64,000 bases of DNA, taken from NCBI GenBank assembly GCA_026708055.1, contig JAPOVS010000067.1, forward strand, positions 1 to 64,000, given 5' to 3'. Positions 22,066-25,376 of the stretch are shown in pieces. Source of the stretch: a bacterium. GTDB taxonomy: Bacteria; Actinomycetota; Acidimicrobiia; Acidimicrobiales; CATQHL01. The notes beneath the pieces were generated by a model. That model had not been told where the DNA came from, did no database searches, and saw only the letters and a program-made list of their open reading frames with translations. Each line of letters starts with the position of its first letter. Within the stretch, counting starts at the first letter, position 1. A program made the translations under genes and the position numbers.

Positions 22066-22326
22066 GTGGTGGGCCCGACAAGTCGCATTCAGTGGCGGTA
22101 CCGCGCCGGCGGCCTGTTGCTGGCGGTGGGCTGGGAGCTTCTTCGCCGGCCGCGCCTGTGGCCGGAGGCGTTCCGGCAGTTGCCGACCGTCGCCTCGGGG
22201 CGGTACCGGGGGTTCCGCTCGGTGACCGCCTACGGTGATCCTCAGCGGCAGCCGGCGCCGGCCGACGTCCTGGCCTGGCTGCGGTGGGCGCGGTCCTTCA
22301 GACGGGCCTGCACCCGGCACGGGTGA
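22066..22326 (+). CDS. Small conserved hypothetical protein
   Basis: The product has 86 residues. After a basic start it has a hydrophobic stretch (GGLLLAVGWELLRRPRLW), then FRSVTAYGDPQRQPAPADVLAWLRWARSFRRA. The pattern of a YGDP motif, PAPADV and a Trp-containing C-terminal helix is one I associate with small Acidimicrobiia proteins of unknown function, which makes the gene real despite its length. GTG 22066 is one of two adjacent candidates (the other is GTG 22069, out of frame). It ends 34 bases before the HNH endonuclease gene. Confidence 0.6.
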   Translation: MVGPTSRIQWRYRAGGLLLAVGWELLRRPRLWPEAFRQLPTVASGRYRGFRSVTAYGDPQRQPAPADVLAWLRWARSFRRACTRHG

Positions 22327-22360
22327 GGCATCGCGCGCTGTCGGGCTAGCTTGTTGGGCC

Positions 22361-22870
22361 ATGACCCAGGCCCTGGTGCTCAACGCCACGAACGAGCCGC
22401 TGAGTGTGGTGCCCGCTCGCCGCGCCGCCGTGCTGGTGCTCGACGGGAAGGCCGACGCCGTGCACCTCAGCGGTGTGGAGTTGCGGTCGGAGAGCCTCAG
22501 CCTCCCGATCCCCTCGGTCGTTCGCCTGCAGTACTACGTCCGAGTGCCGTACCTGCGGCGAGGCTCGCTGAGCCGGAGGGGCGTGCTGGCGCGGGACGAT
22601 CACAGTTGCCAGTACTGCGGTCACCGTGCCGACAGCATCGACCACGTCCGCCCGCGCAGCCGCGGCGGGGGACACACCTGGGACAACGTGGTGGCGGCCT
22701 GCCGGCGTTGCAACACGCGCAAGCGTGATCGACTCCCCAGCGAGATCGGCATGCGGCTCCGGCGCACGCCTCGGCCGCCGACGTGGACCACCGTCATCCG
22801 CCTCAGCGCCGGCGAGGTTCCCGACCACTGGGGCGCCTACCTGCACGACGACAGAGCCCTGTCGGCGTGA
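22361..22870 (+). CDS. HNH endonuclease family protein
   Basis: The 169-residue protein opens with ALVLNATNEPLSVVPARRA, the standard N-terminus of a widespread actinobacterial HNH family. The nuclease core is near residues 82-125: CQYCG, DSIDHVRPRSRGG with the catalytic His, HTWDNVVAACRRCN with the conserved Asn and second cysteine pair, and KRDRLPSEIGMRL. The family is common in housekeeping contexts and its substrate is not established. ATG 22361 is clear. The stop overlaps the next gene by four bases. Confidence 0.9.
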   Translation: MTQALVLNATNEPLSVVPARRAAVLVLDGKADAVHLSGVELRSESLSLPIPSVVRLQYYVRVPYLRRGSLSRRGVLARDDHSCQYCGHRADSIDHVRPRSRGGGHTWDNVVAACRRCNTRKRDRLPSEIGMRLRRTPRPPTWTTVIRLSAGEVPDHWGAYLHDDRALSA

Positions 22871-23583: not shown

Positions 23584-23667
23584 GACATCCCTCCCAGCCG
23601 CGGAACTCGACCACCGCCGCGAGGTTCTCCGGCGGCTCCTGAGACCCCTCCTGGTGGCTTGATTGTC

Positions 23668-23710
23668 TTGCTCAGTGGGGAGAGGTGGTCTATTGTGGTG
23701 AAAAAAGGGG
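23668..23710 (+). promoter_or_regulatory. mraZ promoter with four MraZ-type boxes
   Basis: A sigma-70-like promoter is visible: -35 TTGCTC at 23668-23673, a 17-base spacer, and -10 TATTGT at 23691-23696. Four TGGNN-type boxes spaced exactly ten bases apart overlap it: TGGGG 23676, TGGTC 23686, TGGTG 23696 and AGGGG 23706. MraZ proteins are known to bind tandem TGGGN repeats with 10-base periodicity upstream of their own operon and to repress it. The arrangement fits autoregulation by the mraZ product encoded 83 bases downstream. The leader between 23711 and 23792 holds no other clear signal. Confidence 0.75.
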
Positions 23711-23792
23711 AACAGTCCCTATACTGAACTCCGTTCAGAACAGCCGCGCCGAGCGCAATGCACGGCGCAGAGTCAGTGAGACACGACACACC

Positions 23793-24263
23793 ATGGATAG
23801 AACATTCTCCGGCAGTCACGAGCGCTCCATCGACGGTAAGTGGCGCGTCTCGCTCCCGCCGGAGTTCCGCGGCGGGCTGGATGCCGAGGACCGCTGTGTC
23901 CTGGGCCGTGTTCCCGGCAGCCCTTGCCTGGGGCTGTGGCGTCAGAAGGGTTTCGACGCCGCCTACCGGCGCCTCGAGGAGGAGGTTCGCACCCGGGGTT
24001 CCGGACAGAATCTGCTCCGCTGGTTCTCCGGCAACGGCTATCCCGTTCGGCCCGACGCGCAGGGCCGCATCGTGGTGCCCGAGCCGCTGCGCGAGGTGCT
24101 CAGCATCGACACCGCCGAGAGCGAGGCGCGCGTCTTCGTCGCGGGCGTCGGCGAGCGGATCGAGCTGTGGAACAGCGAGGTCTGGCTGGCGACGGTCGGT
24201 GGGGCCGACGCCTACACCGATGAGACGGGCCTGGATCCCTGGTCCGAGAGCAGTTGGCTGTGA
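23793..24263 (+). CDS. mraZ: Transcriptional regulator MraZ
   Basis: MraZ is the ring-forming regulator that controls the division and cell-wall operon. The product has 156 residues with the two expected SpoVT/AbrB-type repeats: HERSIDGKWRVSLPPEFR at the N-terminus and NGYPVRPDAQGRIVVPEPLR in the middle. ATG 23793 is chosen because it gives the family N-terminus (MDRTFSGSHE); GTG 23685 would add 36 unrelated residues and would start inside the operator boxes. The C-terminus is slightly longer than usual. It is separated from rsmH by 165 bases that include an inverted-repeat element. Confidence 0.93.
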   Translation: MDRTFSGSHERSIDGKWRVSLPPEFRGGLDAEDRCVLGRVPGSPCLGLWRQKGFDAAYRRLEEEVRTRGSGQNLLRWFSGNGYPVRPDAQGRIVVPEPLREVLSIDTAESEARVFVAGVGERIELWNSEVWLATVGGADAYTDETGLDPWSESSWL

Positions 24264-24279
24264 ACGACCGGCCCGCGCT

Positions 24280-24411
24280 GGTCCGCCGCTCAGCAATCTC
24301 CCGGCTGGCAGGAGGACAGCCAATCCCTACTCCGCCCGCTTGCCACTTTCCTTGCGACGGCAACAATCGCCGCGAGGTCCTGGCAGTCGGGAGATTGCTG
24401 AGCGGCGGACC
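24280..24411. mobile_element. 132-bp miniature inverted-repeat element between mraZ and rsmH
   Basis: The arms 24280-24303 and 24388-24411 are perfect inverted copies of each other over 24 bases (left arm begins GGTCCGCCGCTC). Similarity continues inward for about nine more bases with two mismatches. The 84-base interior has no plausible gene. This is the structure of a MITE-like non-autonomous element, although no clean target duplication is visible at the ends. If transcribed within the mraZ transcript it would fold into a very stable stem of at least 24 base pairs just upstream of rsmH. Confidence 0.7.
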
Positions 24412-24428
24412 GCGGGTGCGACGGCACC

Positions 24429-25376
24429 GTGGCCGTCCATGAGGGCCCCGGGATCGGAGGGCACGACTCCGTCATGGTCCGCGAGGTCACCGAGGTGCTG
24501 GAGCCGATCCCGGCGGGCGTCCTCGTGGATGCCACGGTCGGGGCAGGCGGTCACACCGCCGCCCTCCTGGAGCTTCGCCCCGATCTGAGATTCGTCGGGC
24601 TGGATCGAGATCCTGCGGCACTCTCCGCCGCCGCCCGGCGTCTTCCCGACGATGTCCGGCTGCTCCGCTGCAGCTACGCGGAGCTCGGCGCGGTGCTCGC
24701 CGAGTTGGGGGTCGGCTCGCTCTCGGGCGTGATCTTCGATCTCGGGGTCAGCTCCATGCAGCTCGACACCGCCGCCCGCGGGTTCAGCTACCGGGCTGCC
24801 GGGCCGATCGACATGCGCATGGATCCCACCGCTGAGCTCAGCGCTGCGCAGATCGTCAACGAATGGCCGGTCGAACGCCTGGCGAGCCTGCTGAGGCGCG
24901 ACGGCGACGAACCGCATGCACAGCGGATCGCCCGGGCCATCGTGGCCCGCCGCCCGCTGCCCGACACCGTCGTTCTGGCCGAGGTCGTGCGCTCCGCCAT
25001 ACCTGCCCGCGACCGCCGGCGCGGCGGGCATCCGGCCAAGCGCAGCTTCCAGGCGCTGCGCATCGCGGTCAACAATGAGATCGCCCAGATCGCCCCTGCG
25101 CTCACGCAGGCCATCGACCGACTGGTGCCTGACGGCAGGGGAGTGGTGCTCAGCTACCACTCCGGGGAGGACCGTGTCGTGAAGGACACCCTGGCGGCTG
25201 CCGCCTCCGGCGGCTGTGCCTGCCCGCCGAGGCTTCCCTGCGTCTGCGGTGCCGTCCCCAGCATCCGGCTGCTCTCCCGGCGCCCGGCGCGGCCCGCAGC
25301 CGAGGAGACACGACGCAACCCGCGCGCCTCGAGCGCCCGCCTACGGTCCTTCCAGAAGCTCCAGGTGGCGGCATGA
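24429..25376 (+). CDS. rsmH: 16S rRNA C1402 N4-methyltransferase RsmH
   Basis: RsmH methylates the N4 position of C1402 in 16S rRNA using S-adenosylmethionine. The 315-residue sequence has the family start HDSVMVREVTEVL, the cofactor-binding VDATVGAGGHTAALLE, IFDLGVSSMQLD, RGFSYRAAGPIDMRMD, KRSFQALRIAVNNE and the C-terminal VVLSYHSGEDRVVK. GTG 24429 lies 18 bases after the inverted-repeat element. The final ATGA overlaps ftsL. Confidence 0.95.
   Translation: MAVHEGPGIGGHDSVMVREVTEVLEPIPAGVLVDATVGAGGHTAALLELRPDLRFVGLDRDPAALSAAARRLPDDVRLLRCSYAELGAVLAELGVGSLSGVIFDLGVSSMQLDTAARGFSYRAAGPIDMRMDPTAELSAAQIVNEWPVERLASLLRRDGDEPHAQRIARAIVARRPLPDTVVLAEVVRSAIPARDRRRGGHPAKRSFQALRIAVNNEIAQIAPALTQAIDRLVPDGRGVVLSYHSGEDRVVKDTLAAAASGGCACPPRLPCVCGAVPSIRLLSRRPARPAAEETRRNPRASSARLRSFQKLQVAA

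Follow-up and report, generated by a model that had tools for sequence, protein, structure and literature searches.

A conserved three-way-junction RNA between mraZ and rsmH in Acidimicrobiia, with a loop that resembles the 16S rRNA site of RsmH

The stretch of DNA analyzed here (the window) comprises 64,000 nucleotides (nt) of a contig from a member of the order Acidimicrobiales, class Acidimicrobiia. It carries mraZ and, downstream on the same strand, rsmH (mraW), which encodes the methyltransferase of 16S rRNA position C1402 (Table 1). Behind rsmH lies an FtsL-like gene, whose scores did not reach the curated cut-offs; next comes a murE-like Mur ligase gene. Why the cluster of division and wall genes begins with rsmH has long been puzzling. 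Upstream of mraZ, at positions 23675-23700 of the window, three GTGG repeats (GTGGGG, GTGGTC, and GTGGTG) follow each other with an exact 10-nt spacing, an arrangement that we take to be the one expected of an MraZ operator. A promoter-like site (23698-23725) overlaps the last of these repeats. Slightly upstream of mraZ, an HNH-endonuclease gene (22235-22870) was found, which showed weak, below-cut-off NCBIfam similarity to the HNH regions of IscB and Cas9d.

The mraZ stop codon (24261-24263) and the rsmH GTG start codon (24429) are separated by a spacer that contains a 132-nt inverted-repeat element (24280-24411). Its two 34-nt arms are separated by 64 nt and are 94% complementary. Pairing is perfect over the outer 24 bp (24280-24303 and 24388-24411), and the full arms carry two mismatches. 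The RNA of positions 24250-24440 was predicted to fold with an energy z score of -6.7, and none of 200 dinucleotide shuffles was as stable. An intrinsic terminator, defined as a GC-rich hairpin with a U run, was searched for in 23600-24700, and no terminator-like site was found. A first-pass annotation of the sequence had described an element of this length with perfect 24-bp inverted ends between mraZ and rsmH and no obvious target duplication. All of this was correct, and no flanking direct repeat was detected in 24200-24500.

Table 1. Genes and RNA features at the mraZ-rsmH junction (positions in the window)
Feature	Position	Strand	Evidence or remark
mraZ, upstream gene	23793..24263	+	PF02381, E 7.9e-16
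P1 5' arm, long closing stem	24280..24313	+	Pairs with 24378-24411; inverted repeat, fold, covariation in 25 sequences
P2 hairpin (GGACAGC ... GCUUGCC)	24314..24346	+	82% of cells paired; the window's own shape inferred from homologues
Conserved P2 loop ACUCCGCCCG	24329..24338	+	9/10 identical to E. coli 16S rRNA 1396-1405
P3 hairpin	24350..24377	+	Variable, absent in some relatives
P1 3' arm	24378..24411	+	Ribosome site and rsmH start in many relatives; in-frame stop in the window's genus
Small hairpin GGUGC-GACG-GCACC	24415..24428	+	Directly 5' of the rsmH start in the window's genus
rsmH (mraW), 16S rRNA C1402 N4-methyltransferase, downstream gene	24429..25376	+	TIGR00006 equivalog, 281.7 bits vs cut-off 154.3

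The element, which has perfect terminal inverted repeats, had been tentatively interpreted as an old or unusual MITE inserted between the two genes. The data refute this part of the first-pass annotation. A search of the own genome, a 3.9-Mb draft in 87 contigs, returned nothing apart from the element itself and its two palindromic arms; there was thus a single copy and not the dispersed copies of a MITE. The element was present at the same mraZ-rsmH site in all seven other genomes of the genus (81-95% identity), with neither presence/absence variation among these close relatives nor a target duplication. The same site is occupied across the order and the class, where the stem is kept by compensatory changes, and the element is tied to rsmH. 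The lack of a second copy together with a stem kept in relatives had been named beforehand as the outcome that would speak against a mobile element, and this outcome was observed. We therefore rejected an inserted MITE or other mobile element, to which we assign practically no probability.

Comparison of homologues revealed a three-way-junction RNA in which a long closing stem (P1) encloses two hairpins: P2, whose loop (CCCUACUCCGCCCG) is almost invariant, and P3, which is variable. In distant genomes of the order, a different sequence upstream of rsmH follows the same P1/P2/P3 plan. P1 has at least 27 pairs in most members. P2 is imperfect in the window's genus and elsewhere reads GAUGGAAG ... 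CUUSCCAUC. Members in which the modelled P3 is missing retain P1 and the loop. The fold was evaluated in a MAFFT alignment of 25 members, drawn from the 30 elements found. Of the 27 modelled P1 pairs, 26 change on both sides yet stay paired. When P1, P2, and P3 were taken together, 88.7% of the cells were paired, compared to 72.8% after shuffling. Double-sided changes were present in 42 of the 45 pairs, compared to 24 after shuffling; none of 500 shuffles reached as high a value, and pairing was halved when the partner was slid by one column. In 35 held-out sequences (66 loci minus the 25 used for model building and six redundant ones), 90.3% of the cells were paired, compared to 72.3% after shuffling, and 41 of the 45 pairs showed double-sided changes, in an alignment that was fitted to the model and leans towards it.

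The coding strand, which reads into rsmH, scored higher than its reverse complement in all 66 loci, which argues for an RNA rather than a DNA palindrome. These loci are a hand-made, non-duplicate choice, and 57 reverse-strand matches in the same alignment were ignored. The element thus has what is expected of a cis-regulatory leader, namely a covarying structure, a fixed place before one gene, and the orientation of the coding strand. An RNA element at the mraZ-rsmH junction is near certain. A possible loop-loop contact between CUCC in P2 and GGAG in P3 was judged by eye. It is mostly not kept in the genus and P3 is missing elsewhere; the contact is not claimed here.

Genome searches were performed with a covariance model, R1. 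Within the order, it matched 209 of 298 genomes (E 0.01, with stricter filters; many of these genomes are incomplete); it also matched 28 of 346 genomes spread over the phylum (E 0.1). The 28 include seven genomes from other orders of Acidimicrobiia; one further genome of the class, also from another order, gave no match to R1. In all 44 fetched loci with E values up to 2.8e-8, some of which repeat earlier-fetched sites, rsmH was located just downstream on the same strand. It was nearby in none of the 10 fetched loci with weaker E values. A MraZ match was detected in 62 of the 66 element loci. An exact 22-nt pattern taken from P2 and its loop was also used, and had 87 matches in a collection in which each of 84,980 species is represented by one genome. 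The next gene was rsmH in 82 cases; the other five matches lie so close to the end of the stored stretch (within approximately 250 nt) that the downstream gene could not be judged. Four loci in which the loop pattern is followed by rsmH come from records titled Bifidobacterium breve or Acidobacteria, titles that are probably wrong.

Outside the class, model matches (E 3.3e-6 or weaker) did not adjoin rsmH. The stretches upstream of rsmH from 30 loci of 38 genomes of the phylum chosen outside the class were folded and searched for the motif, and no comparable structure was seen by eye; one of these loci was seemingly read inside the gene. Among 60 near relatives, 57 had rsmH, and the element was directly upstream of it in 47 of the 57. 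Three were set apart: one is cut by a contig end, and two with a model match were counted as present but unplaced. One genome was judged by eye at a truncated contig, and one is a weak member. The element was missing upstream of rsmH in the remaining seven (G010, G014, G027, G040, G042, G047, and G051), and in most of these, mraZ and rsmH overlap or nearly adjoin. Thus, the element coincides with the loss of a tight coupling between the two genes. The earlier proposal that the stem might affect the downstream genes or uncouple them from mraZ agrees with this arrangement at the level of structure. Such overlapping or nearly adjacent mraZ and rsmH were noted in four loci of order members without the element (L015, L217, L218, and L219).

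No Rfam family matched the element. The top matches, to miRNA families, were far under the gathering scores and reflect any long hairpin. The Rfam mraW motif (RF01746) is likewise an RNA structure that precedes rsmH (mraW) in actinobacteria, and it, too, has a long stem whose apical loop is rich in C; the original description gives it for Actinomycetales (Weinberg 2010, PMC2864571). The present element shares this location. In contrast to it, the mraW members form a single long rod with the loop GUACUUCCCC and have no three-way junction. The RF01746 model reached its cut-off in none of 148 genomes of the order, and it matched neither the window nor any of 20 element loci. Sixteen sub-threshold matches were read in part, and those compared, from eight genomes (G011, G022, G027, G037, G041, G045, G052, and G057), were on another contig than rsmH. 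The model of the present element, in turn, does not convincingly find mraW loci (best E 0.004, 17.5 bits). No description of the element was found in a literature search, for which subscription papers were mostly out of reach. The mraZ-rsmH junction, which is among the best-conserved gene junctions in bacteria, almost certainly harbors a real, class-wide, and apparently undescribed RNA family, which adds an unlisted structured RNA to this site.

The relation between P1 and the start of rsmH was analyzed in 57 non-redundant loci (the 66 loci minus seven same-genus copies and the loci L096 and L099). In 29 of them, about half, the rsmH frame starts with an ATG or GTG whose position in the P1 3' arm is constant. 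This codon is usually preceded, 6-8 nt upstream, by GAGGGG, GGGGGG, or a similar run that constitutes the ribosome site. The predicted accessibility of the region from base -12 to the start codon had a median of 0.07 in the whole leader versus 0.44 when the 5' arm was left out. Of the first-pass reading, therefore, the stem in the mRNA before rsmH stands by structure, although the MITE does not. In the other 28 loci, including that of the window, the start codon is not in frame inside P1, having moved downstream or the frame being unfit. Masking of the start codon in P1 is thus common but not universal. The window's genus has an in-frame TGA at the place of the P1 start codon, and the window's rsmH GTG is located 18 nt beyond P1, with the small hairpin in between and no evident ribosome site. 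Its own leader must therefore act differently or additionally. In one genome (G007), the stem of the small hairpin is changed to GGCGC/GCGCC.

The core of the P2 loop, CUCCGCC, is the most conserved part of the element, with 1.57-2.0 bits per position versus a mean of 0.93 bits outside the P2-P3 region. The loop was compared to rRNA, and its counterpart in 16S rRNA (ACACCGCCCG in E. coli; Table 1) is the sole 9-of-10 match among all 10-base windows of E. coli 16S and 23S rRNA. This rRNA segment contains C1402, the base methylated by the product of the adjoining gene rsmH; C1402 corresponds to position 24335. Wherever a base is present, the loop positions facing C1400, C1402, and C1403 are C (57/57, 57/57, and 56/56 sequences). 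Speaking against mimicry, the loop has a conserved U opposite A1398 (55/56), and several same-genus members have A in place of the G facing G1405. Two control loops, that of P3 and that of the Rfam mraW motif, matched at 8/10 positions at best. Loops shuffled at constant composition matched a segment over C1402 as well in approximately 3% of cases (555/20,000 and 41/1,500); with this probability and a C-rich loop, the match could be due to chance. By its sequence, the loop may plausibly mimic the RsmH target site. In one same-genus genome (G003, locus L011, outside the 57), the loop is CUCCCAUC instead of CUCCGCCC: the second half of the motif is lost, A takes the place that would correspond to C1402, and P1 is kept.

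It is probable that the element controls rsmH translation. P1 would fold as soon as it is transcribed and, in the commonest arrangement, would pair away the rsmH ribosome-binding site and start codon. With these hidden, rsmH would not simply be carried along by the translation of mraZ. The P2 loop would present almost the same sequence as the decoding site around C1402. RsmH that is free of immature 30S subunits may bind (or methylate) this loop and keep the leader shut, and plentiful 30S substrate would draw RsmH off. Opening of the leader may additionally need cleavage of the double-stranded P1 by RNase III. We regard a conserved cis-acting leader of rsmH with RsmH feedback via the loop as the best explanation, held tentatively and with slightly less than even confidence. 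RsmH as the ligand, with feedback through substrate mimicry, is the best specific idea for the mechanism and the weaker step, possible rather than probable. A similar or slightly lower probability applies to the wider reading that RsmH, by binding a leader that copies the site around C1402, regulates translation of its own gene and perhaps also of the division and wall genes that follow. P1 is very stable, which makes a simple ligand switch hard to imagine. Moreover, one study states that recombinant RsmH requires the 30S subunit and not free 16S rRNA (PMC5053481), and another states that METTL15, the human orthologue of RsmH, shows no sequence preference when binding RNA in vitro (PMC10828496). 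Both reports argue against a simple recognition of the loop.

Leaders of ribosomal protein genes (e.g., those of S8, S15, and L1) mimic an rRNA site, in that the mRNA carries a copy of the binding site next to the start codon. The present element may likewise carry a copy of an rRNA site near a start codon; unlike those leaders, it would bind a modifying enzyme, and it has a much longer stem. The leader of sgm, a gene for another methyltransferase, reportedly carries a CCGCCC motif, and we know of no large conserved leader structure for sgm or kgmB. According to a report on these two genes, whose products are methylases that protect the same rRNA site, the genes are negatively autoregulated at translation (PMC2791848), which is a precedent for feedback by RsmH. 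These methylases, too, act at the decoding site. They are resistance enzymes, with KgmB acting at G1405, whereas RsmH is the housekeeping C1402 enzyme, for which translational control is deduced from the leader. If RsmH feedback operates, the supply of immature 30S subunits would determine how strongly the first genes of the division cluster are expressed, and ribosome assembly would be directly linked to cell division throughout Acidimicrobiia. A leader that copies the rRNA target of RsmH would make this link directly testable.

The main rival to RsmH feedback is processing by RNase III, which would cut P1 in every transcript, part the mraZ and rsmH mRNAs, and free the start codon without any sensor; the loop would be kept for folding or for the nuclease. 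The length of P1, far beyond the needs of masking, supports such a site, and so does the close spacing of mraZ and rsmH in most element-less genomes, which makes the element coincide with uncoupling. It leaves unexplained, however, why conservation peaks in the single-stranded loop, and we consider it unlikely. Translation of the loop itself, as part of a short coding sequence, was also considered, since the loop reads PYSAR in one frame and, in many members, no stop codon interrupts this frame within the element. This was rejected and has only a very small residual probability: third codon positions are the most conserved ones (1.77 bits versus 1.45 and 1.56), a one-base indel divides the family into groups of 32 and 25, and stop codons are scattered.

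In a metabolite riboswitch, or another response to a small ligand, the three-way junction would bind a compound such as S-adenosylmethionine or a precursor of the wall. This would account for the junction, for the conservation of the loop, and for a start codon placed within the closing stem, and the downstream genes make the cell wall. We find it improbable, more so than RNase III processing, because the most conserved bases are in one hairpin loop and not in a junction pocket, P3 is without pairs in several relatives, and no Rfam riboswitch matched. Slightly less improbable than a riboswitch is a different partner of the decoding-site-like loop, such as RsmI, another 30S maturation factor, MraZ acting on RNA, or a small RNA. 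The loop data that point to RsmH would equally suit such a partner, and RsmI acts on the same base (PMC5053481). Nevertheless, the adjoining gene is rsmH in every locus that could be judged, which favors RsmH itself.
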